A DNA stretch of 64,000 nucleotides from Pseudovibrio brasiliensis (GTDB lineage Bacteria > Pseudomonadota > Alphaproteobacteria > Rhizobiales > Stappiaceae), in assembly GCF_018282095.1 (NCBI RefSeq), contig NZ_CP074126.1, forward strand, positions 2,056,501-2,120,500, written 5' to 3'. Made by a program: the position numbers and the translations under genes. The notes beneath the pieces were generated by a model. It was not told where the DNA came from and did no database searches. It was given only the letters and a program-made list of their open reading frames with translations. Positions 32,009-48,421 of the stretch are shown in pieces (the first letter of the stretch is position 1; each line of letters begins with the position of its first letter).

Positions 32009-32737
32009 TTACAGCAGAGCAGTCCCCACGCTCATCCCACCACAAACAAACAGCGTCTGTCCGGTGATGAAACTGGACTTGGGGTCCGCAAAGAACATAA
32101 AGGCATTGGTGATGTCCTCCACCGTGCCAATGCGGCCAACGGGGATGCCATCGGCCAGCTTCTGCTCCTGCTCACTGCCCTTGGGAATGATGCCCCAGAA
32201 ATTATCTGTCTTCACCGGACCAGGCGCCACCACATTCACCGTAATCTGATGTTGCGCCAATTCCAGCGCCCACGTCCGCGCCATCCCGATCATACCAGCC
32301 TTGGATGCACTGTAGGCCGTCCGTGTCTTCGCTCCCAAAGCAGCGCGGGAACCGTTAAACAACACCCGTCCGAACTGCTTCGCCTTCATGCTTGGCAAGA
32401 AGGCTTTGAGCAGCGTCAGAGCTGATCCCAGATGAAGCTGAGCAAGGCCAGCAATGTCATCCGCGTCGGCCTCTTCAATCAGATTGGGAAAGATCAGCCC
32501 CGCATTGTGAATGAGGTGTGTCACCTCATGCTCACCAGCAATCGCATCCGCTGCTGCACTCACTTGCGCCTGATCCAGTAGGTCCGTCTGATGGAAGTGG
32601 AGCTTTGGGTGCTCAAACTCAGGTGCCCGGCGCGACAGGCAAATCACCGTATAGCCAGCCTCTAGCATCTCCTTCGCCAAAGCCGCACCAATACCCTTGT
32701 TGCCACCTGTAATGACCGCAGTGAATTCTTCTGACAT
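32009..32737 (-). CDS. SDR family oxidoreductase, last gene of the aromatic operon
   Basis: A 242-residue short-chain dehydrogenase. The cofactor motif is TGGNKGIGAAL (residues 10-20), NAG is in LIHNAGLI, and the active site is intact with S in FNGSRAAL and YSASK (YxxxK). The start overlaps the cyclase stop by one base (TGATG) behind GGGAGGTCGCTG, so it belongs to the aromatic operon. In an indole-acetate pathway it could interconvert an alcohol and a ketone, for example dioxindole and isatin. That is inference; the sequence shows only an active SDR. Confidence 0.85.
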   Translation of the reverse strand: MSEEFTAVITGGNKGIGAALAKEMLEAGYTVICLSRRAPEFEHPKLHFHQTDLLDQAQVSAAADAIAGEHEVTHLIHNAGLIFPNLIEEADADDIAGLAQLHLGSALTLLKAFLPSMKAKQFGRVLFNGSRAALGAKTRTAYSASKAGMIGMARTWALELAQHQITVNVVAPGPVKTDNFWGIIPKGSEQEQKLADGIPVGRIGTVEDITNAFMFFADPKSSFITGQTLFVCGGMSVGTALL

Positions 32738-33543
32738 CAGCGACCTCCCTTTGGCACAAGCGCCAGCACGCGTAACGGACTGCCAGTCCCGCTTTTAATC
32801 TTAAGTGGCGCGCACAGGATCATGGCGCCTGTTGCTGGTAACTGATCCAGATTGCACATGCATTGCAGTCCATACTTGCCAGCGCCATGCAGATAAAAGT
32901 GAGCCGGATAGGGCGGTGTATAATGCGCACCTTGGCCCGCATCCGTCCCCACAGTCTCCGTACCAAATCCGCGGATACTGCGTTCATCAATTAGAAACCG
33001 GATCGCCTCTGGCGTTGGCCCCGGCGAATGCGGCCCATCATCCCGCATATTCAGGTAAGCCGCACCGCTGCGCTTACTCCAGTCCGTGCGCATGAACACC
33101 CAGCTGTCTGCTGGAATACGCCCGTGCTCGACCTCCCAAGCTGCAATAATCTCCGGTGTCAGCTCAAAGTCATCATCCTGCGCAGATCCTTGCGAGCAAT
33201 CGATCACCACCACCGGACCAACAAAGTGCTCAGGCGGAATGGAATCCACCGTGTTGTTGGGCAGATCCTTGCCGGAAATCCAATGAATCGGTGCATCAAA
33301 GTGAGTGCCGGTATGTTCTGAGCAGGTGAAGGTGTTCCACTTCCACGCCGGACCACGATGATCATAGGCAGAAATCTCTTCCATCCGAAAGCGCGCGCAC
33401 TGTCCAAACTCAGGCGGCAGCACGATCACCGGAAAGTCCGGATCAAGCGTGTGCGTCAGGTCCACCACCTCCACACCGCCAGAAAGCAAAGCAGAGCTGA
33501 GCAGTTCAACTGGGTTCACCAGTTTCTCCTTCAAGGCTTCCAT
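32737..33543 (-). CDS. Cyclase-family metal hydrolase, isatin hydrolase candidate
   Basis: A 268-residue member of the cyclase/kynurenine formamidase family. The metal motif HxGTHxDxPxH is complete: H77, H81, D83 and H87 (SEHTGTHFDAPIHW). ATG 33543 follows GGAGG; an in-frame TTG two codons earlier overlaps the upstream stop. The family includes Mn-dependent isatin hydrolase, described from the related marine genus Labrenzia, which opens isatin to isatinate. Kynurenine formamidase is the main alternative, but no kynurenine-pathway gene is near, while a Rieske dioxygenase, CoA ligase, retro-aldolase candidate and indolepyruvate oxidoreductase are. Family call is firm, isatin specificity moderate. 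Confidence 0.75.
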   Translation of the reverse strand: MEALKEKLVNPVELLSSALLSGGVEVVDLTHTLDPDFPVIVLPPEFGQCARFRMEEISAYDHRGPAWKWNTFTCSEHTGTHFDAPIHWISGKDLPNNTVDSIPPEHFVGPVVVIDCSQGSAQDDDFELTPEIIAAWEVEHGRIPADSWVFMRTDWSKRSGAAYLNMRDDGPHSPGPTPEAIRFLIDERSIRGFGTETVGTDAGQGAHYTPPYPAHFYLHGAGKYGLQCMCNLDQLPATGAMILCAPLKIKSGTGSPLRVLALVPKGGR

Positions 33544-33545
33544 GG

Positions 33546-34805
33546 TCAAAGCGCCTCCAGACTTGTCATTTCTTTTTCAAGCACCTTTGGGCTTTCCATA
33601 AATTTACGCCGGATGTCCTTGGCAACGTCGCCCACATACACATCCTCCAGCCCCGCTTGCAGCGCCTTCACCAACTCTCGTGCCAGCGCACCAGCAGGTA
33701 CCTTGGGTGGAGGCAAAGGCTGATGCCATTCATCCTCAGTCGGCCCGCAATACACATTCACCACCCGCACACCAGACGCCGCCATCTCCGCCCGCAAGCA
33801 CTGCGAGAGGGAATGCGCGGCGGCATTGGAGGCGGAGAAACTGCCAAAGCCGGGATTGCTCACCAGCGAGTAGATTGAAAGCACATTCACCCATGCAACA
33901 GCGCTGTTCACCCCATCTGCACTACGACCCGCCATAGCAGGAGCAAAGGCCTGCGCCAGACGCATCATGCCGAAATAGTTGACCTGCATCTCATCCATAG
34001 CAAAGCCCACATCCCCACGACCCTGAATGCCACCGGGGCGCACAAAACGGGCATTGTTGATCAGAATGTCGACCTTGCCGCCAAACTCACCAGCAAGCTC
34101 CTGAACTGAGGTGGTGTCAGTAACATCTAAAGAAACCAGCTCAACGCCTTGAAGAGACTCAAGTTTAGGTCGGTCAGAGTAGGGGCGCCAACCCTCAGAC
34201 TCCCCAACAAACACCGCAGAAGCCCCAGCCTCTAGCAGGCTCTTCGCCAGCGCATAAGCATTCGGATTGCGTGCATCCGTAATCAGAATACGACGGAACT
34301 TCGGGTCACACGTAAGCTCGCGAAGCTGCATATCATCCTCCTGCAACTGGGCTCTTTCCATGGGCAACGCTAGCAAAACGCTCTGTCCGGACTTATCAAG
34401 CCGATTGATCAGCTGAACCTTATCACCAACTGTCACTTCACTGTGCAGATGGCACATAACGGAAGGCCCAATATCCAAATGCACCGTTCCAAGCCGCCAT
34501 GGCGTACGCTCACGGAAATAAGTGTTCGTGCTCGTGCGCACCGTGGATGTCGCAATCAGCTTCCCGTGCGGCGAAACATCCTGCCAAACCAACCGATCAG
34601 ATAAACAACAGGCACAAGCATCCCGCGCAGGGTATTGAACTGTTGAGCAATCAGGTTCTGCACAGACCTGTAGCATAAACCGCCCTTCAGCTGCGGCAGC
34701 TGCTATAAACAGAGCAGAACGGCTTCGATAATGGGATGGCAACGTTGGCACACGGGTGCGCACCTGCGGGTTCTTTTTCGGCGGTTTTTGAAGTGGTGTC
34801 ACCAT
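33546..34805 (-). CDS. DUF35 OB-fold/zinc-ribbon domain fused to a degenerate SDR domain
   Basis: A 419-residue fusion. Residues about 20-160 are a DUF35 acyl-CoA-associated domain: cysteines C48, C53, C64, C66 and C67 form the zinc-ribbon region, and an OB fold follows (GKLIATSTVRTSTNTYFRERTPWRLGTVHLD). Residues about 170-400 have the SDR fold (DILINNARFV..MDEMQVNYFGMMRLAQAF), but the cofactor glycine motif is replaced by TDARNPNAYAL and the YxxxK pair reads FSASN, so dehydrogenase activity is unlikely. DUF35 proteins partner thiolase-fold enzymes, and the thiolase-like gene is directly upstream with a one-base overlap. ATG 34805 follows GGAGG. The fused inactive SDR may be structural. Confidence 0.8.
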   Translation of the reverse strand: MVTPLQKPPKKNPQVRTRVPTLPSHYRSRSALFIAAAAAEGRFMLQVCAEPDCSTVQYPARDACACCLSDRLVWQDVSPHGKLIATSTVRTSTNTYFRERTPWRLGTVHLDIGPSVMCHLHSEVTVGDKVQLINRLDKSGQSVLLALPMERAQLQEDDMQLRELTCDPKFRRILITDARNPNAYALAKSLLEAGASAVFVGESEGWRPYSDRPKLESLQGVELVSLDVTDTTSVQELAGEFGGKVDILINNARFVRPGGIQGRGDVGFAMDEMQVNYFGMMRLAQAFAPAMAGRSADGVNSAVAWVNVLSIYSLVSNPGFGSFSASNAAAHSLSQCLRAEMAASGVRVVNVYCGPTEDEWHQPLPPPKVPAGALARELVKALQAGLEDVYVGDVAKDIRRKFMESPKVLEKEMTSLEAL

Positions 34806-35983
34806 CAGCTTACCCCCTCCAGAAGTGCTGCACTGGTGCAAACGCCGCGATCATAGTTGATCACTCCAAAGCCGGAAACCAGCGCACGCTTGGCACCTAT
34901 AACCTGCGTCGCGCCAGCCGTGCCCGTCACCTGCCGGATTGCTTCCACTAAGCCGATAAACCCACCAGCAGCCCCGGCCTGACCAGCTGAAAGCTGCCCA
35001 CCAGAGGTGTTGTGCGGAAAGTCACCGGAAACCGTCAGGTCTTTGCCTGCAATGAATCGCGCCGCTTCACCCTTTGCGCAAAAGCCAAGGTCTTCCATCT
35101 GCATCATCACAATGACCGGATAGTCATCATAGGTCTGCAGCAGGTCTACGTTCTCCGGTCCATGCCCCGCCATGCCATAAAACTCATCAATATCCATCGC
35201 CCAGCCACCACGCATCTGGATCGGGTCTTCAGGAAACGCATTGTGTCGCTCGATGGTTGCGCTGATGTGGGCGTAAGGAATGCCAGCAGCCACCGCATCT
35301 TCCTCCCGCATCACCAAAAACGCCTCAGCTCCTGCCACCGGCATCACACAATCAAACAGGGTGATCGGATCGCTGATCTCACGGCCCGCCAGATAGGCGT
35401 CCATCGTCAGCGGCTTCTTCATCACCGCATTCTCATTGCGCAAAGCATTGTCGCGCTGAGAAACGCAGATCCGTCCAAAGTCCTCGCGGCTTACCCCAAA
35501 CTCGCGCATGTAATAGTCGGTGAGCAGCGCAAAACAGGCATTCGGCCCGCCAGCGCCATAAGGGTAGGAGGCATCCTGAGCAAACCGAGAAAAGCTGGAG
35601 AGCATACGGCGGAAGCTGTCTACGTGGTTGGTGTCTCCGGCAACGCAAGCTACCACAGAGGCATCCCCGCATTGCACCGCCCGTGCAGCCCGGCGCAGCG
35701 CACTCGGCCCACTGGCACCGCCCTGCGGAATATGATCCAGCCAACGCGGAACCAGCCCCAGATGCTGTGTAAGACCCACTGCGGTATCTGGAAACAACGA
35801 GAAACTGGCGACAGAAAACCCATCAATATCGCGCGGTATCAGTCCAGCAGCCTTAATGGACTGCCGTAGCGCCTTGGCAATCCACCAATGAGCTGTTTCA
35901 GTTGAATAGCGCTCATAAGGCGTGCTGGCTGGTGCCGCCACCACAACCCCATCATACCCCATGCGTTTGCGCGGCTTGATCAT
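34805..35983 (-). CDS. Thiolase-superfamily protein without the nucleophilic Cys (Ltp2-like retro-aldolase candidate)
   Basis: A 392-residue thiolase-fold protein of the SCP2/lipid-transfer branch. At the usual place of the acyl-accepting cysteine it reads PQGGASGPSAL (residues 87-95), with no Cys, so normal thiolysis is unlikely. Other family parts remain: NTSGGQLSAGQAGAAGG near 335, and LQTYDDYPVIVMMQMEDLGFC near 287. Actinobacterial Ltp2 enzymes of sterol breakdown share this pattern: they need a DUF35 partner and cleave tertiary beta-hydroxyacyl-CoA by retro-aldol. A DUF35 gene follows here with coupled translation. In this operon the substrate may be dioxindole-3-acetyl-CoA, giving isatin and acetyl-CoA; this is inference. 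Confidence 0.8.
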   Translation of the reverse strand: MIKPRKRMGYDGVVVAAPASTPYERYSTETAHWWIAKALRQSIKAAGLIPRDIDGFSVASFSLFPDTAVGLTQHLGLVPRWLDHIPQGGASGPSALRRAARAVQCGDASVVACVAGDTNHVDSFRRMLSSFSRFAQDASYPYGAGGPNACFALLTDYYMREFGVSREDFGRICVSQRDNALRNENAVMKKPLTMDAYLAGREISDPITLFDCVMPVAGAEAFLVMREEDAVAAGIPYAHISATIERHNAFPEDPIQMRGGWAMDIDEFYGMAGHGPENVDLLQTYDDYPVIVMMQMEDLGFCAKGEAARFIAGKDLTVSGDFPHNTSGGQLSAGQAGAAGGFIGLVEAIRQVTGTAGATQVIGAKRALVSGFGVINYDRGVCTSAALLEGVS

Positions 35984-37599
35984 GAAACCAACTGCCTTCG
36001 CTTCAGGTGGATGGTGTCGAATGCTTCAGATTTCTCCAGAAGTTCCAACGCCATCTGCTTTTGCGCGGCCCTCTGGATCTTCTGCGTGCCAGTCAGCTTC
36101 AATGAGCTGCAAAACGCGATGTAACCGGGCACTTTGTAATAGGCCATGCGTTCCAGCCCCCAGCGTACAATCGCCTCTGCCGCGTCCTTGGTCTGCTCGC
36201 CGCGCCAGACGATAGAGGCAAACACCTCATCGCCGCGCATAGCATCGGGTACCGGACAAACAGCCACCGCTTCAACATCCGGGTGCTGCATAAGAACGGA
36301 CTCCACATCCACCGCAGCAATATTCTCACCACTGCGCCGGATCACGTTCTTCTTGCGGTCTACAAAGAAGAAGTCACCATCCTCATCCCGGCGAACAATA
36401 TCACCCGTATGGAACCAGCCGTCCGCCCAAGCCTCGTTGGTAGCTGCATCATCCTTGAAGTAATGCGAGAAAAACCCGACGCGCGGATCATCTCCCTTGC
36501 GCCGCACCAGCAACTCACCGGGCGCGGTCCCCGTAACCGGCTCACCATCATCGCCCATGATGCACACATCCATCTCAGGTCCGGGCTTGCCAAGGCAGTT
36601 CATGCCACGCTTGCGCGGCTCCTGATTGGCGGCAATCACAGAGCCAGCACCTGTTTCTGTCATGGCCCAGGCTTCCACCAGAGGAATGTCAAAACGCTCC
36701 TCAAACGGAATATGCAGCTTGGCATCAATGCCAGCGCCAAAACCAAAGCGAACCGAATGTACATTATCTTCCGGCGCTTCCGGCAGGCTCATCAGAATGG
36801 ACGGCATCACACCCAGATAATGCAGGCAGGTTGAGCGACTATCTCGCACACTCTGCCACCAAGATCGCGGATGGAAACGGTCCAGAACCGTCAGACAGCC
36901 GCCAACGGCCACCATAGCCATCGCCGAATACGCCATCGCATTCATATGGAAGATTGGCAGTGGCGTTATCATCCGCTCACCATCATCCTTCAGCGTGCAC
37001 GTGCCACCAGCATTGGCGTACCAGTGACCCGCCTCCAGAAAATACCGATTGGCCAACACACACCCTTTGGGACTACCTGTCGTGCCCGAGGTGTAAAGCA
37101 TCGCTGCCGGATCATCCTGCGCGGCGGAATAGTCTTCAGAGGCAGCAGAGCGCAAAACGGGCAGGGCACCTGCAAGTGTTACACAGGCAAAGCCTTGGCC
37201 GCTGTCGCGGGCAGCCTGTTCCATATCGGCTTTACGTTCAGGCGTGGAGACCGCCAGAACTGGCTCAGCATGCCTGCCGATATACTCAAGCTCAGAGCTT
37301 TGCAGGTCTGGATTGATCGGCACAATCACCACGCCAAGGGCATTCAGCGCCAGCCAATGCAGGAAGAAGGCAGGGCGATTTTCCAACAGCACCAGAACCC
37401 TGTCACCAGCCTGAAGCCCCGCTTGCCGATAGCGCTCCTGAGCACTTCGTGCCTGCGCCAACGCCTCAGCGTAAGACGTTTCACATGATGCAATCCCGTA
37501 GACCTTTGCGGTTTCCGGCAAAACATTCACAAATGGTCGCTCCGGCCACTTTTCAGCAGCGGCACAAAACGCACCAAAAACAGATTTATGCTCAATCAT
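35980..37599 (-). CDS. AMP-forming acyl/aryl-CoA ligase
   Basis: A 539-residue adenylate-forming CoA ligase. The phosphate-binding motif is MLYTSGTTGSPKGC near residue 187, followed by EAWAMTETGAG near 315, WFHTGDIVRRDEDGDFFFVDRKKNVIRRSGENI near 415, and catalytic K in TGTQKIQR near 510. The layout resembles CaiC and aryl-acid ligases. It overlaps the thiolase-like gene by four bases and follows the dioxygenase beta gene by 17, so it probably activates the dioxygenase product as a CoA thioester for carbon-carbon cleavage. The substrate is not readable from sequence. Confidence 0.87.
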   Translation of the reverse strand: MIEHKSVFGAFCAAAEKWPERPFVNVLPETAKVYGIASCETSYAEALAQARSAQERYRQAGLQAGDRVLVLLENRPAFFLHWLALNALGVVIVPINPDLQSSELEYIGRHAEPVLAVSTPERKADMEQAARDSGQGFACVTLAGALPVLRSAASEDYSAAQDDPAAMLYTSGTTGSPKGCVLANRYFLEAGHWYANAGGTCTLKDDGERMITPLPIFHMNAMAYSAMAMVAVGGCLTVLDRFHPRSWWQSVRDSRSTCLHYLGVMPSILMSLPEAPEDNVHSVRFGFGAGIDAKLHIPFEERFDIPLVEAWAMTETGAGSVIAANQEPRKRGMNCLGKPGPEMDVCIMGDDGEPVTGTAPGELLVRRKGDDPRVGFFSHYFKDDAATNEAWADGWFHTGDIVRRDEDGDFFFVDRKKNVIRRSGENIAAVDVESVLMQHPDVEAVAVCPVPDAMRGDEVFASIVWRGEQTKDAAEAIVRWGLERMAYYKVPGYIAFCSSLKLTGTQKIQRAAQKQMALELLEKSEAFDTIHLKRRQLVS

Positions 37600-37616: not shown

Positions 37617-38099
37617 TTAAATGAACAGCTGAATGTTGCCAAAGGCAGCATCACAGTTGAGCAGATCTACCCGCTTCAGCTTAATCTTCAGCTCATCCTC
37701 AACCATCTCAAAATGGTGGTGAACGGTCGCTGCCAGCAAAAACTGGTCATCCAGCCGCGTCTCCACATAATGAACGGCAGTACGGGTTACGAACTCCCCC
37801 GCCTTTGGATCAAAAGCCTCGACACTTGGGCGGTTGAGAACGTGAGAACAGCGGCTCTTTGGTTTTTGAGAGAAAGTACGCAGGCCCTTGAGCCGCTCAA
37901 CACGAAGCTTTCGCAAAAACGCATCCTCATACATAAGAGAGGTCATGTTTTTCGGGTCTTCTTGCTGATAGTCCAGCGGCATCCAGTAGTAGCTGTCCGC
38001 AGCCCACAGCTCCAGCCACTCGTCAAAGCGGCCTTCATCAATCACACGGGCTTCATGGTAGACAAGGTCGATCAAATCATCACGCGTCGGCAAGGTCAC
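37617..38099 (-). CDS. Ring-hydroxylating dioxygenase, beta subunit
   Basis: A 160-residue small subunit of an aromatic-ring dioxygenase with the cystatin/SnoaL-like fold (VYHEARVIDEGRFDEWLELWAADSYYWMPLD). I place the start at GTG 38099 because GGAGG lies nine bases before it, inside the end of the alpha gene; the longer frame begins only at a TTG. It overlaps the alpha gene by 20 bases. The beta subunit has a structural role in the alpha3-beta3 enzyme. Confidence 0.88.
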   Translation of the reverse strand: MTLPTRDDLIDLVYHEARVIDEGRFDEWLELWAADSYYWMPLDYQQEDPKNMTSLMYEDAFLRKLRVERLKGLRTFSQKPKSRCSHVLNRPSVEAFDPKAGEFVTRTAVHYVETRLDDQFLLAATVHHHFEMVEDELKIKLKRVDLLNCDAAFGNIQLFI

Positions 38100-39435
38100 G
38101 AGCTTCGGCCTCCATGCTTTCAACGGTAAACTTCTTCCAGGCGTGGAACTGATTGCGCATCTGCCGTTCCGTGGTACCGTTCTCTACAGCCTCAAGGTCA
38201 AGGTCTTCGCCTTCCTCATAAAGGCGCTGCACATTCACCCACTCAAGCTCCTGACAATGCAGGCCTTCCTGCGCGCGCTCATACATCTCCAGATCATCGT
38301 GCCCCACAATGGAGGTTGGTGCGTTGATCAAGCGGTTGTACATGGCCGTGCGCTCCAGCAGCATGTCCGGCGCCCCCACAAGGCGGAAGATGTAACTCTC
38401 CACCAGCGTTTTGTTGGCAGCTAGCGGAATGAACACACGCAGCTGCTGGATAGGACCCTTAATCATGATGTTCGGGAAATAGACCGTGTTATGCCGGTTT
38501 TCGCCCAAAATGGCCTTGGCCCGTTCCTCACCATAAGCCTCCGCCATCATCTCCAGATAACCGGGAATAGCGGAGTAATCAGAATGAATGGAGTGATGTA
38601 CACCTGTATGGCCATGCCCATTCGGCCAGGTGCGAATGCCCATGTCCTCAAAAAACTCATAGGGCGACATGAACGGCGCAATCACCTCCATCGCCATGGG
38701 CGTTTTGGTGTTCTCGTCCTTCTCTAGGGATTCCCAGATTTCAACGGCAGTACCTGCGGAGCTTTCATGGGCAACCATCGGGTGGCAGGTGTCGGTCTGA
38801 TTATCGACCAGCATCTTCCAATTGCAACTGTGCATGTAGCGCAATGGCGGGCCGGCCACCTCCAGCTTTCCAACCGGAGAGCGGTCAATCATGTTGTCCA
38901 AAGAGGAGAGGGAACCTCCGAAGAAGTCTTCGAAGCTGATACCTTCCTGCTTCATGCGCACAAAGATAAAGCCGCGATAATTCTTCACCGCACCCACAGG
39001 CGGCAGACCGCTTTGTCCGGCCTCGCTCTGCTCAAAGCCGGTGTCTTTGTAGCCCTTCTTCAAAGGGATCGCGAGCAGCTTGCCATTGGTGCGGAATGAC
39101 CACGCATGGTAAGGGCAGCGGAAAAACTTGCCCGTGTTACCAGCACGATCAATGACGATCTTGGTGCCTTTGTGCGGGCAGCGATTGTGCAGCACATACA
39201 CTTCGCCATCCGTATGCCTAGCCAAAAGAATAGGCTGAGCAGCCACTTCAGTCGCGAAGTAATCGCCCGCATTTGGCACCTGACTTTCATGCCCCACATA
39301 AACCCATGTGGAGGCAAACAGATGCTTCATTTCAAGTTCAAAAACTTCATCGTCAATATAAAGGTCACGATGCACTTCGGCAGGGCGCACAAGATCAGCC
39401 ACCGCCTGCGGGTTATCTTTGTATTTCATGGTCAT
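38080..39435 (-). CDS. Rieske ring-hydroxylating dioxygenase, alpha subunit
   Basis: A 451-residue catalytic subunit. The Rieske 2Fe-2S ligands are C86 and H88 (NRCPHKG) and C107 and H110 (RCPYHAW). The mononuclear iron ligands are H218 and H223 with bridging D215 (DNQTDTCHPMVAH). ATG 39435 follows GGGAGGGAAGCTT. Together with the beta subunit and the reductase upstream it makes a complete two-component system adding O2 to an aromatic ring. The following genes (CoA ligase, retro-aldolase candidate, isatin hydrolase candidate) suit an indole-3-acetate dioxygenase that gives dioxindole-3-acetate. Benzoate-like substrates remain possible. Confidence 0.92.
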   Translation of the reverse strand: MTMKYKDNPQAVADLVRPAEVHRDLYIDDEVFELEMKHLFASTWVYVGHESQVPNAGDYFATEVAAQPILLARHTDGEVYVLHNRCPHKGTKIVIDRAGNTGKFFRCPYHAWSFRTNGKLLAIPLKKGYKDTGFEQSEAGQSGLPPVGAVKNYRGFIFVRMKQEGISFEDFFGGSLSSLDNMIDRSPVGKLEVAGPPLRYMHSCNWKMLVDNQTDTCHPMVAHESSAGTAVEIWESLEKDENTKTPMAMEVIAPFMSPYEFFEDMGIRTWPNGHGHTGVHHSIHSDYSAIPGYLEMMAEAYGEERAKAILGENRHNTVYFPNIMIKGPIQQLRVFIPLAANKTLVESYIFRLVGAPDMLLERTAMYNRLINAPTSIVGHDDLEMYERAQEGLHCQELEWVNVQRLYEEGEDLDLEAVENGTTERQMRNQFHAWKKFTVESMEAEARDLADA

Positions 39436-40542: not shown

Positions 40543-40571
40543 ATATGCGATATCATATAAAACGATGTCAA
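40543..40571 (-). promoter_or_regulatory. Promoter of the dioxygenase operon with MarR-type dyad ATATG-N6-CATAT
   Basis: The 16-bp dyad ATATG-CGATAT-CATAT (40543-40558) lies in the 199-bp gap between divergent reductase and TRAP genes. On the minus strand TTGACA (40566-40571) can serve as the -35 box, with an AT-rich -10 region falling at the dyad. The same dyad architecture recurs upstream of the second marR gene, so this is a strong operator candidate. Confidence 0.65.
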
Positions 40572-40675
40572 TGCATGAATCGGAATTAGTTTCCATTTCA
40601 TATTTGTGCTTGATTAACCTACGGTATGTGTGCACATTTTTCTCATTCATCCTGTATTCTCTGGGGAGGGAGAAC

Positions 40676-41704
40676 ATGAATAAGAAATTCAAGATATTTG
40701 CAGCTGCAACTATTGCCGCGCTCTCCGTCAGCGCATCTGCCATGGCGCAGGAAACAGTATTGCGTATGTCCAGCTGGCTGCCACCGGCACACCCGATCGT
40801 AAAGGGCATGATGGTGCCTTGGGCAGCCAAAGTAAAGGAAGTGACAGAGGGACGCGTCTCTGTTCAGATCCTCGACGCGCCGCTTGGCCCGCCACCAGCG
40901 CACTTCGATCTCGCTGCCAACGGCATTGCAGATCTCACTTACGGCGTGCATGGCTACACACCAGGCCGCTTCAAACTCACTCAGATAGCAGAGCTGCCAT
41001 TCCTCGCTAAGGATGCCACCAGCTTGTCCGTGGCGTACTGGCGTCTCTATGAAAGCACACTGGCAAAAGCCAATGAGCACCGTGGTGCCAAGGTGCTGGG
41101 CGTTTTCACCCACGGCCCGGGCCTGCTCTACACCACTGATCGTGCTGTCTCGCCTCTGAGTGAGCTGAAAGGTGCAAAGATCCGCGTAGCTGGGAGCATC
41201 ACCAACCAGCTGGTTCAGACCATGAACATGGTGGCCATTCAGGCGCCAGCCCCGCAGTCCTATGAGATCCTCTCAGGCGGCATTGCGGACGGCATCGTGT
41301 TCCCGACAGAATCCATCCCGTTCTTCAAGCTGGATGGCTTGTTGAGCAATGGCCTGCGCGTAGACGGTGGCCTGTACAACGTCTCCTTTTTCTTCATCGC
41401 CAACAACGCCAAGTTCTCCAGCCTGTCAGAAGCGGATCAGAAAGCCATTGAGGCGATTTCTGGCGAAGCCTTCTCCCGCCTTGCTGGTGCAGCCTGGGAT
41501 GCAGCAGATGCTTGGGGGCTGGAACAGATGCAGGGCAAAGTGACCATTCACGACGCCACCGCAGAAGAACGTGCTCAGCTGGAAGAAGCCACTCGTCCAA
41601 TGTTTGACGGTGTTGCCAAATCCTACGGCGAAAAAGGCATCGACTTCGAAGTTGCCATGGACATGCTCCAGAAAGAAGTTGCAGCGGTTGCCTCTGAAAA
41701 ATGA
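40676..41704 (+). CDS. dctP: TRAP transporter substrate-binding protein of the aromatic region
   Basis: A 342-residue periplasmic protein. ATG 40676 follows GGGAGGGAGAAC; frames further up have no site. The signal peptide MNKKFKIFAAATIAALSVSASAMA precedes QETVLRMSSWLPPAHP. The ligand-binding Arg is in GAKIRVAGSITNQL near 178. Membrane subunits follow with overlapping reading frames. It is divergent from the dioxygenase operon across a shared operator, so an aromatic acid is its likely ligand, perhaps indole-3-acetate. The ligand is inferred from context only. Confidence 0.9.
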   Translation: MNKKFKIFAAATIAALSVSASAMAQETVLRMSSWLPPAHPIVKGMMVPWAAKVKEVTEGRVSVQILDAPLGPPPAHFDLAANGIADLTYGVHGYTPGRFKLTQIAELPFLAKDATSLSVAYWRLYESTLAKANEHRGAKVLGVFTHGPGLLYTTDRAVSPLSELKGAKIRVAGSITNQLVQTMNMVAIQAPAPQSYEILSGGIADGIVFPTESIPFFKLDGLLSNGLRVDGGLYNVSFFFIANNAKFSSLSEADQKAIEAISGEAFSRLAGAAWDAADAWGLEQMQGKVTIHDATAEERAQLEEATRPMFDGVAKSYGEKGIDFEVAMDMLQKEVAAVASEK

Positions 41705-42210
41705 GTGGGAATCTGGTTGATATAGCAGCGCGCGCCCGGCGAAAACTTCGCTCGGGCGCCTCTGTTCTCTGCGGACTACTGCTTCTGGCGCTGGTAGCTG
41801 TAACGGTGATCGACGTAATCGGTCGGTACCTGTTTGCAAGCCCATTGCCCGGAGCACCGGAATACACCGAGCTGCTGCTCATGGCGGTGATCTTCACCGG
41901 TCTGCCTGCGGTTTGTCTGGATGACGGCCACATCACAGTGGATCTGTTTACCTCCAAGTTCAGAGGTGGCCTGGCCTCTCTGCAGCTGTTCTTCTCCCGC
42001 ATCTTCGTCGCCATCGTACTGGCGGTGGTGGCGTGGGAGCTGTGGAAGCATGGAAACCAGCTGGCGAGCTATCAGGAAGTCACGGTCTATCTGCGTGTAC
42101 CACTGGCGCCGTTTTCCAAAGCAGCCGGTGTCATCAGTGCCTTTTGCGCATTCATCACATTTGTGCTGGCAGTTCTTAAAATTCCAAGAGGTGTTGGGGG
42201 CGGTTCCTGA
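41701..42210 (+). CDS. dctQ: TRAP transporter small permease (DctQ family)
   Basis: A 169-residue inner-membrane protein with four hydrophobic segments; VTVIDVIGRYLFASPLPGAPEYTELLLMAVIF near residue 38 is a clear DctQ signature. It overlaps dctP by four bases and shares its last base with the dctM start, so the three subunits are co-translated. Unlike the other importers in this window, no hairpin separates the binding protein from the permease genes. Confidence 0.88.
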   Translation: MSGNLVDIAARARRKLRSGASVLCGLLLLALVAVTVIDVIGRYLFASPLPGAPEYTELLLMAVIFTGLPAVCLDDGHITVDLFTSKFRGGLASLQLFFSRIFVAIVLAVVAWELWKHGNQLASYQEVTVYLRVPLAPFSKAAGVISAFCAFITFVLAVLKIPRGVGGGS

Positions 42211-43496
42211 TGGAATGGTATTTGGGTCTTGCCATCCTGATGGCATTGATTTTTGTGGGCGTGCCCATTGCCTTTGCAATGGCAGCCGTTGGTTTCTTCG
42301 GAGTGGCCTCCATCATCGGCCTTCCTCCGGCATTTCACCTTGTCGGGCAGGTCTATTTTGACAGTGGCCGCAGCTACACCTTGTCTGTGGTGCCGCTGTT
42401 CCTGCTTATGGGCAATCTCATCGTACAGTCCGGCATCGCCAGTGACATGTACACGGCAGCGAACGCGTGGCTGCGTCACCGCAAAGGCGGTCTGGCCATG
42501 GCAACAATCGTGGCCTGTGGTGGCTTTTCTTCCGTTTGCGGATCATCTTTGGCAACCACCGCGACCATGGCCCGCGTCTCGCTGCCCGCCATGCGCCGTT
42601 TCGGCTATTCTGATCGTCTGGCCGCATCCTCGATCGCTGCAGGCGGAACACTGGGTATTCTGATCCCGCCTTCCGTCATTCTCGTCATCTACGGCATCCT
42701 CACGCAGCAAAACATCGGTGCGCTGTTCCTGGCAGGCATTCTGCCGGGCCTCGTTGGCGTCATCGGCTATATGCTCGCTGTACGCCTGTCCCTTGTCATG
42801 TACAAGGAAGAACTGGAGGTTCAGAGCAAACTGCCATTGATAGAGCGCATCATCGCACTGCGTGGTGTTTCCTGGGCTCTGCTGCTGTTCATCTGCGTGC
42901 TCGGCGGTATCTATCTTGGCGTCTTCACCGCAACCGAAGCTGCTGGCATCGGAGCAGGGGGTGCACTGGTGCTCACGGCAATGCGAGGCAAGCTGACGTA
43001 TCGCGATACGCTCAACACCCTGTTTGAGACAGCAAAAACCACCGCAGTGATGTTCTTCATCCTGTTTGGAGCGCTGTACTTCCTCAACTACGTCAACATC
43101 TCTGGCCTCACCACCGATCTGCGGGGCTGGGTCAATGCGTTGGGTGTGGGGCCATACGCCATCATCACCATGATCGTGCTGATCTATCTGGTGCTGGGAT
43201 GCCTGCTGGAAAGCCTGTCCATGGTGACACTCACCGTGCCGATTCTCTTTCCAATCGTAACAGGCCTTGGGTTTGACCCGATCTGGTTCGGCATCTTCGT
43301 CATTATTGTTACGGAAATGAGCTTCATCACGCCTCCAATCGGCATGAATGTCTTCGTTATGCGCTCGGTTGCCCCTGAAGTGCCGGTCGAGAAGATATTT
43401 GTCGGTGTAGTTCCGTTTGTAGCTATGGATGTTGTGCGCTTGATCCTGCTAATTGCAGTTCCGGGACTCGCACTTATTATTCCGTACTCAATGTAG
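42210..43496 (+). CDS. dctM: TRAP transporter large permease (DctM family)
   Basis: A 428-residue polytopic membrane protein with the DctM hallmarks VVPLFLLMGNLIVQSGIASDMY near 60, CGGFSSVCGSSLATTATMARVSLP near 105, GGTLGILIPPSVILVIYGILTQQNIG and the C-terminal MSFITPPIGMNVFVM. It forms the sodium-driven import channel with the preceding subunits. A marR gene begins 32 bases after its stop in the same direction. Confidence 0.93.
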   Translation: MEWYLGLAILMALIFVGVPIAFAMAAVGFFGVASIIGLPPAFHLVGQVYFDSGRSYTLSVVPLFLLMGNLIVQSGIASDMYTAANAWLRHRKGGLAMATIVACGGFSSVCGSSLATTATMARVSLPAMRRFGYSDRLAASSIAAGGTLGILIPPSVILVIYGILTQQNIGALFLAGILPGLVGVIGYMLAVRLSLVMYKEELEVQSKLPLIERIIALRGVSWALLLFICVLGGIYLGVFTATEAAGIGAGGALVLTAMRGKLTYRDTLNTLFETAKTTAVMFFILFGALYFLNYVNISGLTTDLRGWVNALGVGPYAIITMIVLIYLVLGCLLESLSMVTLTVPILFPIVTGLGFDPIWFGIFVIIVTEMSFITPPIGMNVFVMRSVAPEVPVEKIFVGVVPFVAMDVVRLILLIAVPGLALIIPYSM

Positions 43497-43528: not shown

Positions 43529-44002
43529 GTGGACGCAGACCTGAAAGAGATCGAAGCTCACGAAAAGGAGCCCGGCTTTGTTGATGGATACCTTTTGTAT
43601 CTGTTGGCATCTGCAAGCCATCTGGCTTCCGGGCAATTTCATGAAGAACTCCGGGGCGCAGGCATACGCGTCCCGGAATGGCGTGTGCTGGCCTGTCTGC
43701 GGGATGATGACGGGCAGATGGTCACCCAGCTGGCACGCTTTGCTCTGATGGAGCAATCTCACCTGACCAAAACCATTGATCAGATGACGGAGCGCGGACT
43801 GGTCACACGGCGCTCTGATGAGGTGGACCGCCGCCGCGTGCGCATCTTCCTCAGTGATAAGGGCAGGGAGCTGGCCAACGGGTTGGTGTCACAGGCCAAA
43901 GCCCATGAGGATCGGCTGGTCCGGCAACTGGGGGCAAATGACATTGCTCAGATCAAAAGTTTTCTCTCTCATATGGTTGAGACTCTCGAAAACAATGAAT
44001 GA
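43529..44002 (+). CDS. MarR family transcriptional regulator 1
   Basis: A 157-residue winged-helix regulator starting at GTG 43529 behind AGAGGT. The DNA-binding part reads MVTQLARFALMEQSHLTKTIDQMTERGLVTRR followed by wing DEVDRRRVRIFLSDKGRELA. It lies 32 bases after the TRAP genes, likely in that operon. MarR proteins commonly repress aromatic-acid catabolic genes until the acid or its CoA ester binds; known auxin-degradation clusters also use MarR regulators. Confidence 0.88.
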   Translation: MDADLKEIEAHEKEPGFVDGYLLYLLASASHLASGQFHEELRGAGIRVPEWRVLACLRDDDGQMVTQLARFALMEQSHLTKTIDQMTERGLVTRRSDEVDRRRVRIFLSDKGRELANGLVSQAKAHEDRLVRQLGANDIAQIKSFLSHMVETLENNE

Positions 44003-44036: not shown

Positions 44037-44064
44037 TTGCTATAAATATGTAAATGCATATAAT
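44037..44064 (+). promoter_or_regulatory. Promoter with MarR-type dyad upstream of the second marR gene
   Basis: TTGCTA (44037-44042) and TATAAT (44059-44064) are spaced by 16 bases. The dyad ATATG-TAAATG-CATAT (44046-44061) covers the spacer and part of the -10 box. It has the same arms and spacing as the site at 40543-40558, pointing to one regulator acting on both, probably including autoregulation. Confidence 0.65.
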
Positions 44065-44121
44065 AAACTTCAAGCTTCATGAAGCAGATGGAGCTTGTTC
44101 AAAAAAGAAAGAGTGCACCTC

Positions 44122-44643
44122 ATGAACGAGATTCTCGGTGATCAAGCTCCCGAAACTGAACAGGACGGACAGCACGCAAAACCGGTAACAGCACCAAGAA
44201 CTCTGGGCGAGGTCGGGCTCAATCATTTTGCGCCTTATCTGATGAACCGGATCATGGGCAGGTACAATGAGAGTTTGCGTGAAAAACTGACACGATCAGG
44301 GTTGTCGGTCGCCAAAATGAGAGCCTTGGCTGTGTTGTCAGTAGTGGACGGACTGATGATCAACGAGCTCTCTGTCTATTCGGTGATTGAGCAATCAACC
44401 CTGAGCCGCACGCTGGATGCCATGGAAAAGGAAGGCCTGATCCATCGCAAGGCCAGCGAGCAGGACAACCGCGTGCGCCATATCTTCCTGACGGAAGCTG
44501 GACGCGCAGCGTTTGCGCAGATGTGGCCGCATATGCGCGACGAGTACACCGCAATGTTTGAGGGCGTCTCGCAAGCCGAGCATGATGCCTTTCTGATGAC
44601 ACTGCGCAAGGTACTGACAAACATTCGAAAGCACGACTTCTAG
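44122..44643 (+). CDS. MarR family transcriptional regulator 2
   Basis: A 173-residue winged-helix protein. The N-terminal 30 residues are variable; the DNA-binding part reads MINELSVYSVIEQSTLSRTLDAMEKEGLIHRK with wing SEQDNRVRHIFLTEAGRAAF. ATG 44122 is preferred over a TTG at 44095. It has its own promoter with a dyad covering it, so it is probably autoregulated and may also control the dioxygenase promoter. The iorAB genes follow after 62 bases. Confidence 0.88.
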   Translation: MNEILGDQAPETEQDGQHAKPVTAPRTLGEVGLNHFAPYLMNRIMGRYNESLREKLTRSGLSVAKMRALAVLSVVDGLMINELSVYSVIEQSTLSRTLDAMEKEGLIHRKASEQDNRVRHIFLTEAGRAAFAQMWPHMRDEYTAMFEGVSQAEHDAFLMTLRKVLTNIRKHDF

Positions 44644-44705
44644 GGCGCGGACCTCCTAACAAAGTTCGCGTTCACGGGATCTGTCACGCTTTCACGGGAG
44701 GGAGT

Positions 44706-46859
44706 ATGGCAGAAAGATCCTTTGTAAAAGAGGTCGAGAAACTTCGCGCAGGCGAGGGCGAGGTTTTCCGCGGTGAAGGTATTCTGGCCATCACCAAAGC
44801 ACTGCTGGAAAATGGCGTAGGCTATGTGGGCGGCTATCAGGGCTCTCCCATCAGCCACCTCATGGATGTACTAGCCGACGCGCAGGATATTCTGGGCGAG
44901 CTGGGTGTGCATTATGAGGCCAGTGCTAGTGAAGCCGCCGCCGCTGCCATGCTGGCCGCCTCAGTTCATTACCCCATCCGTGGCGCCGTCACGTTCAAAT
45001 CAACAGTGGGCACCAATGTGGCCTCCGATGCTCTGGCGAACCTGTCATCAGGCGGCGTCACCGGTGGCTCGCTCGTGATCGTGGGTGAGGACTACGGCGA
45101 AGGCTCCTCAATTATGCAGGAGCGCAGCCACGCCTTTGCCATGAAGAGCCAGATCTGGCTGCTTGATCCACGCCCCAACCTGCCATCCATCGTCAAAGCC
45201 GTAGGCGATGGGTTTGAACTCTCCGAAGCTTCAAACACGCCGGTCATGCTTCAGGTCCGCATCCGCAGCTGCCATGTGCATGGGGAGTTCACCACCAAAG
45301 ACAATGTGCGCCCGTCCATGACAGTGGCTGATGCACTGGAAAATCCCCGGCGCGACCTCAATCGAATCGTCTTGCCACCAGCTTCTTTCTTGCATGAGCA
45401 GGAGAAGGTGACCAAACGCCTGCCAGCAGCGCTGAACTACATTCAAAAACATAAGTTGAATGAACTCTTCGGGCCTCAGGATCGTAAGGTCGGCATTGTA
45501 CTGCAAGGCGGCATGTATAATGGCGTGATCCGTGCACTGCAACGCCTTGGGCTGGCAGACATCAACGGTGAAACCCAGATCCCGCTCTACGTCATGAACG
45601 TGACCTATCCGCTGGTTCCCGCAGAACTCATGGATTTCTGCAAGGGCAAAGACGCAGTGCTTGTGGTGGAAGAGGGTTACCCTGACTACATCGAACAAGC
45701 CATTGGCGCCATGCTGCAAAAAGAGGGCGTCAACACCAAACTGGAAGGCAAAGGCCCATTCCCGGAAGCTGGTGAGTATACCGGACAAGTGATGCTGGAC
45801 AGCATCCAAACCTTCCTTGCAACGCATTCCGATGCATTGCCCGGCAAAGGCCGCGCCCCAAACACACCGGGACCGCTGCCGGATGTGGAGCAGCTGAAAG
45901 ACGTCGTCCCCATGCGCCCGCCAGGGTTCTGTGTTGGATGCCCGGAACGCCCAATCTTCGCCGCGACTAAGTTGGTGGAGAATGAGCTTGGCCCGCACCA
46001 CATCGCCTCTGACATTGGCTGTCACCTGTTCTCTATCATGCCGCCCTTTGGCATCGGCTCAACAACCATGGGGTACGGACTGGGGCCAGCGTCTGCCTCA
46101 GCCTTCAATACCAATGAAACGGATCGCCGCTCCATTTCCTTCATCGGCGACGGTGGTTTCTGGCACAACGGCCTGACCACCTCCATCGGCAATGCGGTCT
46201 TCAACCAGAATGACGGCGTGATCGTTGTCGTCGACAACTACTACTCTGCAGCCACCGGCGGGCAGGACATCCTGTCTTCACGGGCAAACAACAAGAGCAA
46301 GTCCACCAAGCACCCCATTACAGAGGCTGTAAAAGGTGTGGGCGTCAAATGGGTCCGCCAGATCAATCGCACCTATGATGTCACACAAATGCAGTCTGTG
46401 CTGAAAGAGGCACTGACCACGGACGTCAAAGGCCCGAAGGTCATCGTTGCTTCCTCTGAATGCATGCTCAACCGTCAGCGCCGCGAAAAGCCAATCATCA
46501 ATCAGGCCGTCAAAGAGCAAAAACGTGTGGTGAAAACCCGCTTCGGCGTTGATGAAGATGTCTGCACCGGCGACCACGCCTGCATGCGCTTGTCCGGTTG
46601 CCCGTCTCTGACAGTCAAAGAGTTGGATGACCCACTGCGTGATGATCCGGTCGCTCATATCGACCAAAACTGCGTCGGCTGCGGCAACTGCGGGGAAGTG
46701 GCAGACGCCGCCATCCTTTGTCCATCGTTCTATCAGGCCGACACCATCCATAATCCAAGTAAGTCTGAGCGGTTCTTCCGCAGGATACGTGACCGTATTA
46801 TCAACGCCCTGCAAAACTGGCGCGAACGCCGCACTCTGATCATTGAGGAGGTAAACTGA
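44706..46859 (+). CDS. iorA: Indolepyruvate:ferredoxin oxidoreductase, alpha subunit
   Basis: A 717-residue thiamine-diphosphate enzyme subunit that with IorB converts indolepyruvate (or another aryl pyruvate) plus CoA to the arylacetyl-CoA, CO2 and reduced ferredoxin. The pyrimidine-binding domain is N-terminal (GYQGSPISHLMDVLADAQ near 40), the diphosphate domain holds FIGDGGFWHNGLT..VVVDNYYSAATGGQ near 480, and the C-terminus bears Fe-S cysteines (CTGDHACMRLSGC and CVGCGNC near 655). ATG 44706 follows GGGAGGGAGT. A direct repeat TTCACGGGA (44671-44679 and 44691-44699) lies just upstream. It fits an indolic function of the region. Confidence 0.92.
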   Translation: MAERSFVKEVEKLRAGEGEVFRGEGILAITKALLENGVGYVGGYQGSPISHLMDVLADAQDILGELGVHYEASASEAAAAAMLAASVHYPIRGAVTFKSTVGTNVASDALANLSSGGVTGGSLVIVGEDYGEGSSIMQERSHAFAMKSQIWLLDPRPNLPSIVKAVGDGFELSEASNTPVMLQVRIRSCHVHGEFTTKDNVRPSMTVADALENPRRDLNRIVLPPASFLHEQEKVTKRLPAALNYIQKHKLNELFGPQDRKVGIVLQGGMYNGVIRALQRLGLADINGETQIPLYVMNVTYPLVPAELMDFCKGKDAVLVVEEGYPDYIEQAIGAMLQKEGVNTKLEGKGPFPEAGEYTGQVMLDSIQTFLATHSDALPGKGRAPNTPGPLPDVEQLKDVVPMRPPGFCVGCPERPIFAATKLVENELGPHHIASDIGCHLFSIMPPFGIGSTTMGYGLGPASASAFNTNETDRRSISFIGDGGFWHNGLTTSIGNAVFNQNDGVIVVVDNYYSAATGGQDILSSRANNKSKSTKHPITEAVKGVGVKWVRQINRTYDVTQMQSVLKEALTTDVKGPKVIVASSECMLNRQRREKPIINQAVKEQKRVVKTRFGVDEDVCTGDHACMRLSGCPSLTVKELDDPLRDDPVAHIDQNCVGCGNCGEVADAAILCPSFYQADTIHNPSKSERFFRRIRDRIINALQNWRERRTLIIEEVN

Positions 46860-48421
46860 TGGAGATCGACACTCAATGGCAGGAGATGGGCACAGGCGAA
46901 GACGCAACCCGCACCATCACCAAGATCGCCATCTTCGCCGTCGGCGGGCAGGGCGGCGGTGTGCTGACGGACTGGATCGTCAATCTGGCCGAAGCCAACG
47001 GCTACAAAGCCCAGTCCACCTCTGTCGCAGGGGTCGCCCAGCGCACAGGCGCCACCATCTACTACGTGGAAATGGCACCTGATAACGGCAAAGCCCCGGT
47101 CTTCTCGCTCAGCCCGTCACAAGGCGATGTCGACATAGTCATCTGCGCAGAACTCATGGAAGCAGGCCGCGCTGTCATCCGTGGTTTCGTGACCGCTGAC
47201 AAGACAACGCTCATCGCGTCTTCCCATCGCATCCTCGCGGTTTCAGAAAAGATCGTGCCGGGCAAAGGCGAGCAGGACAGCAACGCTGTTCTCTCCCGCC
47301 TCGGCAACGCCTCGCAAAAGTTGGTCGCCTTCAACATGGAAGACGTTGCCGCAGAAAACGGCAGCGTCATTTCCTCCAGCCTCTTCGGTGCTCTTGCTGG
47401 TTCCGGCGCTCTACCGTTCCCCAAAAGCACCTATGAAGAAACAATCCGCAAAGGTGGCAAAGGCGTCAACGCAAGCCTGGCCTCTTTCAATGCCAGCTTC
47501 ACTCATGCTCAATCTGCAGGAGTTGCCGGATCGTCTGTTACCAAGCGACCAGAACAACCAAGGCCAATAACTTCGCTCACAGCACGCGGACCAGCTCGAA
47601 AACTGGCCGCCTGGCAACTGCTCTTATCCCGCATCGAAGCTCTTCCGGAACAGACCCGCGAGATGGCTCTGGCAGGTCTTCGTAAGACGGTTGAGTTTCA
47701 GGATCTGGAGTACGGCGAAGAGTATCTCAACCACCTCGAAATCGTGCTCGCCAGTGATACTGAAAGTGAGAGTTGGGAGCTGACCCGAACAGCAGCCAAG
47801 TATATCGCAAATGCTATGTGTTATGACGACACGATCCGGGTCGCCGACATAAAAACGCAAAAAACACGCTTTCAACGCGTTCATCGGGAAGTGGGCCCAG
47901 CGGCGGGTAGTCAACTGGAGCTGACTGAGTATCTTCACCCCCGCATGGAGGAAATCTGCGGCACACTGCCAACACGGCTTGGCAGATGGATCGAAGCGCG
48001 GCCCGTAGTCTTCAACTGGCTGGACAAGCGCGTCAACAAAGGTCGCCGCATCAGAACCCGATCCATTCGCGGGTTCCTAAGTCTCTGGCTCATCAGCAGC
48101 TTAAAGCCGTGGCGCCGTAGTTTCCTGCGCCATCAGATTGAGACGGACCACCTGCAAAGCTGGCGCGATCTTGTGCTTAAGACAGTCCACTCAGACTACC
48201 AGCTTGCCGTTGAAATCCTCAAATGCCGCCGTCTCATCAAGGGGTATTCAGATACACATATCCGCGGTCACTCAAAATTTGACCGGGTTTTGTCCTCCCT
48301 TGCCCTGCTGAAAGAGCGAAAAGACGCCTCAGATTGGCTCAGACGGCTCCGGGAAGCTGCTTTGCTGGATGAAAAAGGGGATGCTTTGGAAGGTGCATTG
48401 AAGACAGTTCAAACCCTCTGA
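46859..48421 (+). CDS. iorB: Indolepyruvate:ferredoxin oxidoreductase, beta subunit with C-terminal extension
   Basis: A 520-residue subunit. Residues about 20-210 are the gamma-type pyruvate-ferredoxin oxidoreductase domain (IFAVGGQGGGVLTDWIVNLAEANG..STSVAGVAQRTGATIYYVEM). The remaining 300 residues, largely helical and basic, match the extension seen in long IorB proteins of proteobacteria (DUF6537-like), of unknown role. It shares one base with the iorA stop behind GAGGAGGT, so production of the two subunits is coupled. Confidence 0.88.
   Translation: MEIDTQWQEMGTGEDATRTITKIAIFAVGGQGGGVLTDWIVNLAEANGYKAQSTSVAGVAQRTGATIYYVEMAPDNGKAPVFSLSPSQGDVDIVICAELMEAGRAVIRGFVTADKTTLIASSHRILAVSEKIVPGKGEQDSNAVLSRLGNASQKLVAFNMEDVAAENGSVISSSLFGALAGSGALPFPKSTYEETIRKGGKGVNASLASFNASFTHAQSAGVAGSSVTKRPEQPRPITSLTARGPARKLAAWQLLLSRIEALPEQTREMALAGLRKTVEFQDLEYGEEYLNHLEIVLASDTESESWELTRTAAKYIANAMCYDDTIRVADIKTQKTRFQRVHREVGPAAGSQLELTEYLHPRMEEICGTLPTRLGRWIEARPVVFNWLDKRVNKGRRIRTRSIRGFLSLWLISSLKPWRRSFLRHQIETDHLQSWRDLVLKTVHSDYQLAVEILKCRRLIKGYSDTHIRGHSKFDRVLSSLALLKERKDASDWLRRLREAALLDEKGDALEGALKTVQTL

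Follow-up and report, generated by a model that had tools for sequence, protein, structure and literature searches.

Which compound is taken up and broken down by the products of a divergent gene cluster in the alphaproteobacterium Pseudovibrio brasiliensis, and by which reaction would its side chain be removed? These questions are raised by positions 32009..48421 of a 64,000-nucleotide stretch of contig NZ_CP074126.1, hereafter the window. The cluster is very probably an iad locus, responsible for the inducible import of indole-3-acetate (IAA, auxin) and its degradation to isatinate and then anthranilate, with the release of acetyl-coenzyme A (acetyl-CoA). The gene set looks complete and switchable, and the predicted pathway is that of root bacteria. 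This assignment draws on family membership, active-site residues, gene order and importer clade, and on what has been published for relatives, namely the activity of IadCDE on IAA, the effects of iad deletions, IAA binding by IadR of Ruegeria pomeroyi and isatin hydrolase activity; all activities given for Pseudovibrio are predictions. An initial annotation of the same DNA had proposed IAA breakdown through isatin, and this route finds support because IadD/IadE, the hydrolase IadI and the regulator MarR1 each match a protein of published IAA or isatin activity and because the gene order equals that of the Variovorax locus, which has been dissected by experiment. The novelty is lower than that annotation implied, since iad loci have been published, including that of marine R. 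pomeroyi, a reported IAA degrader. What is new here is a testable reassignment of the IadG/IadH step.

In the proposed mechanism, a tripartite ATP-independent periplasmic (TRAP) transporter would import IAA or a related indole acid, and IadR (MarR1), as long as it is free of IAA, would occupy an operator of the form ATATGN6CATAT lying between iadC and trapP. Electrons would pass from IadC to IadDE, which would oxygenate IAA at the indole ring, and the short-chain dehydrogenase/reductase (SDR) IadJ would finish the oxidation to dioxindole-3-acetate. The ligase IadF would convert this product to its CoA ester, and IadG, together with the DUF35 domain of IadH, would carry out a retro-aldol cleavage to isatin and acetyl-CoA, with Tyr285 acting as base and Asp287 taking the position of the proton donor. 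IadI would then hydrolyse isatin to isatinate.

The ring oxidation is represented by an adjacent IadD/IadE Rieske oxygenase pair of the IAA type. The best PDB match of IadD is Variovorax IadD (9o71, E 9.4e-171; 7yls is also Variovorax IadD), with 56.6% identity over 435 residues, and that of IadE is 7yls_A (E 3.3e-46), the sequence of which equals the 9o71 beta chain. IadC is closest to 7ylr (E 4.5e-81), an entry whose code is absent from the text of PMC10374108 and which we take to be Variovorax IadC. Of the 14 cluster, iron and IAA-pocket residues, the last as named for Variovorax IadD in PMC10374108, 13 are identical, and the four Rieske ligands and three iron ligands are kept. In a tree of 43 rows, thinned from 96 sequences, IadD groups with the Variovorax protein, while three oxygenases of about 41% identity to IadD, which at a guess are IacC-like, lie outside at 100/100. 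The genome (6.03 Mb) contains a single IadD of this type and three partial matches at 25-31%.

The initial annotation had described the Rieske enzyme as a dioxygenase forming dioxindole-3-acetate and had given no role to the eighth leftward gene, iadJ. The IAA-type oxygenase stands, but the dioxygenase chemistry does not fit the Variovorax system, where IadCDE is reported as a monooxygenase and IadJ as the dehydrogenase that completes dioxindole-3-acetate (PMC12633357, a preprint, in the part available). In our alignment the SDR site of IadJ is intact (T10, G11, G15, I16, G17, S130, Y142 and K146 in 71/71 rows), and in 11 of 15 rearranged loci iadJ directly follows iadE, with FGHI gone from between; the remaining four comprise one C-D-E-F-J arrangement and three without iadJ in the stretch. 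The intact site and this persistent proximity support a pairing of IadJ with IadCDE, and by analogy with Variovorax IadJ it would catalyse the second oxidation step.

At the far end of the route, IadI aligns with isatin hydrolase A of Labrenzia aggregata (5nnb) at E 1.5e-149. It has the metal motif (HTGTHFDAPIH), the WxW pocket (WKW) and the GLQC signature, and these motifs are kept in 63/63 rows; the isatin hydrolase signatures given in the available part of PMC6117287 are HxG[T/A]HxDxPxH, a WxW/FxW pocket and GLQC/GLAS. The 5nnb match and the three motifs thus identify IadI, by its sequence, as an isatin hydrolase A predicted to form isatinate from isatin, as the initial annotation had suspected. 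The Labrenzia protein is characterized as a single enzyme in the source as available, whereas IadI lies within an iad cluster. A plasmid of Roseibium aggregatum carries a full iad cluster with a cyclase gene 77% identical to IadI; that cluster is followed downstream by a gene of the thioesterase family and by TRAP genes of lower similarity (L086:19515-23200). Two further relatives of the IadI cyclase occur in the P. brasiliensis genome, one of 51% (L142; G000:C3:283837-284604), with the metal motif, FAW and GLAS, that is, the isatin hydrolase B signature, and one of 42% (L143).

The removal of the side chain is the step at which our reading departs from the published one. The PDB matches of IadG are headed by the bile-acid aldolase Sal (9myr), followed by 4u4e (a chain named thiolase) and by Ltp2 (6ok1). 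Compared with thiolase 7yvy, whose catalytic Cys and His are placed by analogy with thiolases in general, IadG shows Gly89 in the Cys position and Gln335 in the His position, each in 65/65 rows and both as in Sal. The YDxF/Y motif retains its Tyr base (Y285 in 65/65 rows, within Y285-D-D-Y). These rows are related, not independent; residue counts were taken without an identity cut-off, and the cut-offs used otherwise had excluded no row. IadG therefore combines a thiolase fold lacking the thiolase Cys with the Tyr base, as found in DUF35-dependent retro-aldolases of the Ltp2/Sal type. The known proton donor (Sal Cys304 or Ltp2 Tyr344) is not found in IadG, which has Asp287 and Gln335 at the proton-donor positions, Asp287 (65/65 rows) taking the place of Cys in Sal and of His in Ltp2; for this reason IadG is not filed as Sal or as Ltp2.

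In IadH, the zinc cysteines of the DUF35 part (C60/C65/C76/C79) are kept in each of the 64 rows, out of 66, that extend over this part. The SDR part is degenerate, with Phe for the catalytic Tyr in 57/66 rows, Lys in one of the 66 and both Tyr and Lys together in none, and with Asp replacing the cofactor motif's first glycine in 64/66 rows. IadG has a thiolase fold but no thiolase nucleophile, its partner carries DUF35 and the substrate would be a beta-hydroxy acyl-CoA; together these features argue for retro-aldol chemistry, and IadI would thereby receive its known substrate. IadG and IadH together look like a redox-neutral retro-aldolase that would give isatin and acetyl-CoA, an idea already contained in the initial annotation, and one which fits the active sites better than the published annotation does. 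We lean, with some reserve, towards a broader proposal, namely that IadG/IadH represent a new class of DUF35-dependent retro-aldolases, with a Tyr-Asp dyad and a dead SDR domain as structural partner, which converts 3-hydroxy-2-oxindole-3-acetyl-CoA to isatin and acetyl-CoA in iad loci generally, Variovorax included. The steroid side-chain aldolases Sal/Shy and Ltp2/ChsH2 (9myr, 6ok1) share the thiolase fold with a DUF35 partner, Gly at the thiolase Cys site and the Tyr base, and Sal also the residue at Gln335. The Pseudovibrio pair differs from them in Asp287, in the fusion of its DUF35 partner to a degenerate SDR domain, where the aldolases have a hydratase, and in its predicted substrate, an indole.

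For Variovorax, IadG has been described as a ketothiolase and IadH as an alcohol dehydrogenase, which would remove the side chain reductively to dioxindole. According to the authors themselves, these roles were assigned from annotation, and the preprint never uses the stem 'aldol' (PMC12633357). The same source reports that C8H7NO2, the formula of dioxindole, and not isatin accumulated without iadI, and that this compound also accumulated in a strain expressing iadCDEFGH with J and K2. This does not follow directly from a retro-aldol step, because that step is redox-neutral; reduction of isatin by other enzymes of the cell could account for it. Furthermore, the one IadH row that keeps the SDR Lys is that of a Variovorax-type genome (L138), but it has Phe at the Tyr position. 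With Gly and Gln at the thiolase sites in every IadG row and no IadH row with a complete Tyr-Lys pair, we consider the reductive route unlikely. The active-site reading in favor of retro-aldol cleavage gives a concrete mechanism to a step of auxin degradation that has so far been assigned by annotation, would if true replace the ketothiolase/alcohol-dehydrogenase assignment, and can be tested by one enzyme assay.

The gene order was compared across the best 80 of 152 relatives among genome contigs and counted in the 70 with at least 7.5 kb downstream. C-D-E-F-G-H-I-J occurs in order in 55/70, so the arrangement is not due to chance. Thirteen genomes were searched further (10 of the 15 rearranged ones, one with the locus at a contig end and two standard ones), and because all 13 hold relatives of IadI (best 58-79%) and of IadG (best 59-75%), the route is split, not lost, in the rearranged genomes searched. 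On a Pantoea plasmid (L087:11039-18083), iadCDE-like genes are followed by a different set, with genes for a flavin adenine dinucleotide (FAD) oxidoreductase, an amidase and an aromatic amino acid transporter in place of iadFGHIJ. A same-order genome (G217, 7.15-Mb contig) has iorA-iorB-iadC-D-E-J (L140:3875-11110) and no FGHI in the 20-kb stretch examined.

The gene-by-gene comparison with iad and iac loci suggested in the initial annotation gave the order of Variovorax iadCDEFGHIJ, and the IacA-type flavoprotein and gene set of iac loci were not seen among the 15 cluster genes by Pfam. In the Variovorax-type genome, recognized by an IadD 94% identical to 9o71, marR, iorA, iorB and iadC to iadJ follow in the same order, with enzymes 45-63% identical to those of Pseudovibrio and a MarR 37% identical. 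The iad locus of Variovorax paradoxus CL14 (PMC9613470, PMC10374108, PMC12633357, each in part) shares with the Pseudovibrio locus the order of iorA, iorB and iadCDEFGHIJ, the IAA-pocket residues, a MarR gene beside the operon and an IadH whose alignment spans the DUF35 as well as the SDR part; conversion of IAA to anthranilate is reported from Variovorax culture (PMC9613470). Unlike in Variovorax, iorAB lies on the strand opposite iadC-J, behind its own operator-like site and marR2, and a TRAP importer takes the place of IadK2, the IAA-binding protein of ATP-binding cassette (ABC) type. IadK2 is not treated as defining here, because the preprint calls it not essential (PMC12633357). Some 10 kb away from its first IadD/IadE pair, the Variovorax-type genome carries another, the IadD of which is 58% identical to Variovorax IadD (L137:7200-8968). 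R. pomeroyi DSS-3, also a marine alphaproteobacterium, carries iadC-J in the same order on its megaplasmid (NC_006569); it appears in the figure on growth and IAA degradation in PMC9613470, according to which, in the part available, all tested strains with IAA loci degraded IAA. It differs in an IadD 65.5% identical to that of Pseudovibrio and in the lack of a TRAP, MarR1 or iorAB homologue within 12 kb at the thresholds used.

Regulation by the pathway's own substrate is suggested by MarR1, whose best PDB match is 3cdh, the IadR of R. pomeroyi (E 3.1e-46), reported to bind IAA with a dissociation constant of 0.237 uM. MarR1 keeps the carboxylate triad Ser28/His32/Arg46 of the published IAA site together with Tyr15 and Trp45; Ala18 is replaced by Tyr, as in R. 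pomeroyi IadR, and Val65 by Phe, where R. pomeroyi IadR has Leu (numbering anchored on 7kki, a published structure, not on MarR_73). We predict from this similarity and these residues that MarR1 is an IAA-sensing repressor. MarR2 has Asn/Arg/Arg at the triad positions, with Arg46 alone kept. For IadR2 of Variovorax, PMC9613470 gives no binding site.

The palindrome ATATGN6CATAT is present at both divergent promoters of the locus. Of the 80 loci, 34 contain it, with 42 copies in total, whereas five patterns with rearranged half-sites, the reversed pattern and four different spacings give 0 or 1. The start of an iad, TRAP, marR or iorA gene follows within 250 bp downstream of 35 of the 42 copies. 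In the home genome there are three exact places, compared with two for the backward-read control; the pattern is thus not rare as such, and what stands out is that two of the three places fall within the locus, the third lying inside an open reading frame (ORF) without an NCBIfam match at E 1e-10. Within the window, allowing one mismatch, three matches compare with 0.99 expected and 6/100 shuffles reach three, which is not significant. Motif discovery at width 20 in 61 of 75 promoters (near-duplicates removed) gave 10.88 for promoters, 10.35 for a coding control and 0.56 for shuffles; the coding control is unfair because iadC is itself conserved, and the case for an operator therefore rests on the pattern counts with permuted controls, which point to a putative operator function.

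The importer's binding protein, DctP, belongs by sequence and by structural clade to the aromatic-acid (TarP-like) TRAP binding proteins. Among the top 15 titles matched by its structural model, five name no aromatic ligand (one is a ligand-free TarP, and four titles break off too early to show it), and the list shows a clade, not a ligand. The ligands of two TRAP proteins are presumably mandelate (4p56) and D-tryptophan (4nap), and an IAA-bound TRAP protein from Desulfovibrio reportedly exists. Compared with TarP-type transporters, the importer here is genetically tied to iad genes; its substrate may be IAA or a related indole acid.

A different entry has to be considered in view of IorAB (IorA: TIGR03336 E 4e-87, under the curated cut-off; IorB: NF006179 687.9 bits, over the cut-off of 348). 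From indolepyruvate, IorAB would make indole-3-acetyl-CoA, and the locus might serve tryptophan catabolism, starting from tryptophan or indole-3-pyruvate with IAA as an internal intermediate instead of from free IAA. The place of iorAB in the cluster behind an operator-like site, its presence in the Variovorax-type locus and its retention with marR2 in one Pseudovibrio without iadC-J would agree with this. However, among 64 relatives with good flanks on both sides, iorA (at least 60%) is found in 12, compared with TRAP DctM in 60 and MarR1 in 59 (each at least 40%), and the dedicated importer and IAA-type receptor point to IAA from outside, which makes this entry improbable. Far less credible is a dioxygenase operon of the benzoate or anthranilate type with no relation to auxin: the general NCBIfam BenA/AntA models are the best named families for IadD, but their scores lie far under the cut-offs (BenA 198.5 of 780.95 bits), IadD scores 571.9 bits to Variovorax IadD against 129.5 for the next PDB family, and an isatin hydrolase and an IAA-type MarR share the cluster. 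A catechol-forming iac locus is likewise highly improbable. In its favor, IadD and IadE are distantly related to IacC and IacD (PMC9613470, as available). Against it stand the isatin hydrolase, the full iadFGHIJ set and the Pfam matches of the 15 cluster genes, which include no flavoprotein of the IacA type. IacA is of the acyl-CoA dehydrogenase type.

Besides the accumulation of C8H7NO2, several observations weigh against the locus being a complete IAA pathway of the kind proposed. No cluster gene is assigned to the conversion of isatinate to anthranilate, and no anthranilate 1,2-dioxygenase of model TIGR03228 scores over its cut-off in the genome. In the IAA pocket, Leu211 is replaced by Gln in IadD, as in 82/83 rows including R. 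pomeroyi, with the Variovorax-type row as the sole exception. The clade of DctP includes binders of cinnamates and hydroxyphenylacetate. Finally, ATATGN6CATAT was not found in the Variovorax-type locus with up to two mismatches, and the R. pomeroyi stretch has no site with 0-1 mismatch near iadC, only ones with two.

Within the genus, IadD is present in 6/16 Pseudovibrio genomes and is 99% identical to a Pseudovibrio denitrificans protein. One of three Pseudovibrio stretches without IadD (G422) aligns to the window until 31918 and again from 48861, so that exactly a 16.9-kb unit is absent; a second (G412) has a larger gap that includes a sugar ABC operon, and the third (G418) a smaller one, 31923-44017 only. 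In G418 a 43-residue MarR1 fragment lies beside the left junction (G418:C1:141558-141686) and marR2-iorAB is kept, which looks like a secondary loss of the iad cluster. In this Pseudovibrio, from which iadC-J, TRAP and MarR1 are missing, the marR2-iorAB block persists with its palindromic site, about 30 bp being identical while the flanks differ. This persistence hints that MarR2 reads the site upstream of marR2-iorAB, a hint weakened by the nearby MarR1 fragment, which shows that the loss may be recent. After Pseudovibrio, the nearest rows to IadD in the thinned tree are Nitratireductor and Mesorhizobium, not Roseibium, a genus of the same family as Pseudovibrio; such a placement would be consistent with horizontal transfer.

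Many alphaproteobacteria carry the cluster, a large part of them marine or saline by record names, and mostly with the TRAP importer; such carriers could remove auxin released by algae or neighboring bacteria, as Variovorax does at roots. No earlier account of an iad locus in Pseudovibrio was found in the literature searched, most subscription journals lying outside that search. The papers on Pseudovibrio and IAA, judged by title or the start of the abstract, included none on IAA degradation by Pseudovibrio, none was found that joined Roseobacter with iad, and among the matches listed on phytoplankton and Rhodobacteraceae none had iadD.

The cluster itself extends from the lowest base of iadJ to the final base of iorB. 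The eight leftward genes of the initial annotation were all recovered at 32009-40476, each with a clear family match, in the order iadJ-I-H-G-F-E-D-C (SDR, PF04199 cyclase, DUF35+SDR fusion, thiolase-fold, AMP-binding ligase, Rieske beta, Rieske alpha, flavin/ferredoxin reductase). The divergent rightward set, 40565-48421, encodes DctP-DctQ-DctM, two MarR proteins and IorA-IorB; the importer, regulators and oxidoreductase named in the annotation as flanking genes are thus present, but the two MarR genes come after the TRAP genes and before iorAB.

Table 1. Features of the predicted iad locus of P. brasiliensis (window positions)
Feature	Position	Strand	Basis
iadJ, SDR dehydrogenase, active site intact	32009..32737	-	PF13561
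iadI, predicted isatin hydrolase A	32737..33549	-	5nnb; three motifs
iadH, DUF35 (zinc ribbon + OB fold) fused to degenerate SDR; putative IadG partner	33546..34841	-	PF12172, PF01796, PF00106
iadG, putative thiolase-fold retro-aldolase subunit	34805..35983	-	best PDB match 9myr
iadF, AMP-forming acyl-CoA ligase	35980..37599	-	PF00501/PF13193; same place and 53% identity in L138
iadE, Rieske oxygenase beta	37617..38123	-	7yls_A
iadD, Rieske oxygenase alpha, IAA-binding by residues	38080..39450	-	9o71, Variovorax IadD
iadC, flavin/ferredoxin reductase of IAA oxygenase	39517..40476	-	best PDB match 7ylr; 46% to L138 reductase
Operator candidate ATATGCGATATCATAT in iadC/trapP divergent promoter	40543..40558	.	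palindrome pattern
TRAP solute-binding protein DctP, aromatic-acid clade	40565..41704	+	
TRAP small permease DctQ	41701..42210	+	PF04290
TRAP large permease DctM	42210..43496	+	PF06808
MarR1 (IadR), predicted IAA-sensing repressor	43529..44002	+	3cdh match and residues
Second operator candidate ATATGTAAATGCATAT, upstream of marR2-iorAB	44046..44061	.	palindrome pattern
MarR2, IadR2-like	44095..44643	+	best PDB match 3cjn
iorA (iadA), indolepyruvate ferredoxin oxidoreductase alpha	44706..46859	+	TIGR03336; 63% to Variovorax-type locus
iorB (iadB), indolepyruvate oxidoreductase beta family	46859..48421	+	NF006179

Several start codons in the ORF list are TTG, and starts may be set too far upstream. 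An ORF at 31880-32425 (+), which overlaps iadJ on the opposite strand, has no Pfam match and is probably no gene. Neighboring genes were also considered as members of the locus and rejected: a permease of the Trp_Tyr_perm family and an L-serine dehydratase on the right side are both present in 3/3 Pseudovibrio stretches without iadD, and the sugar ABC operon on the left side is present in 2/3.

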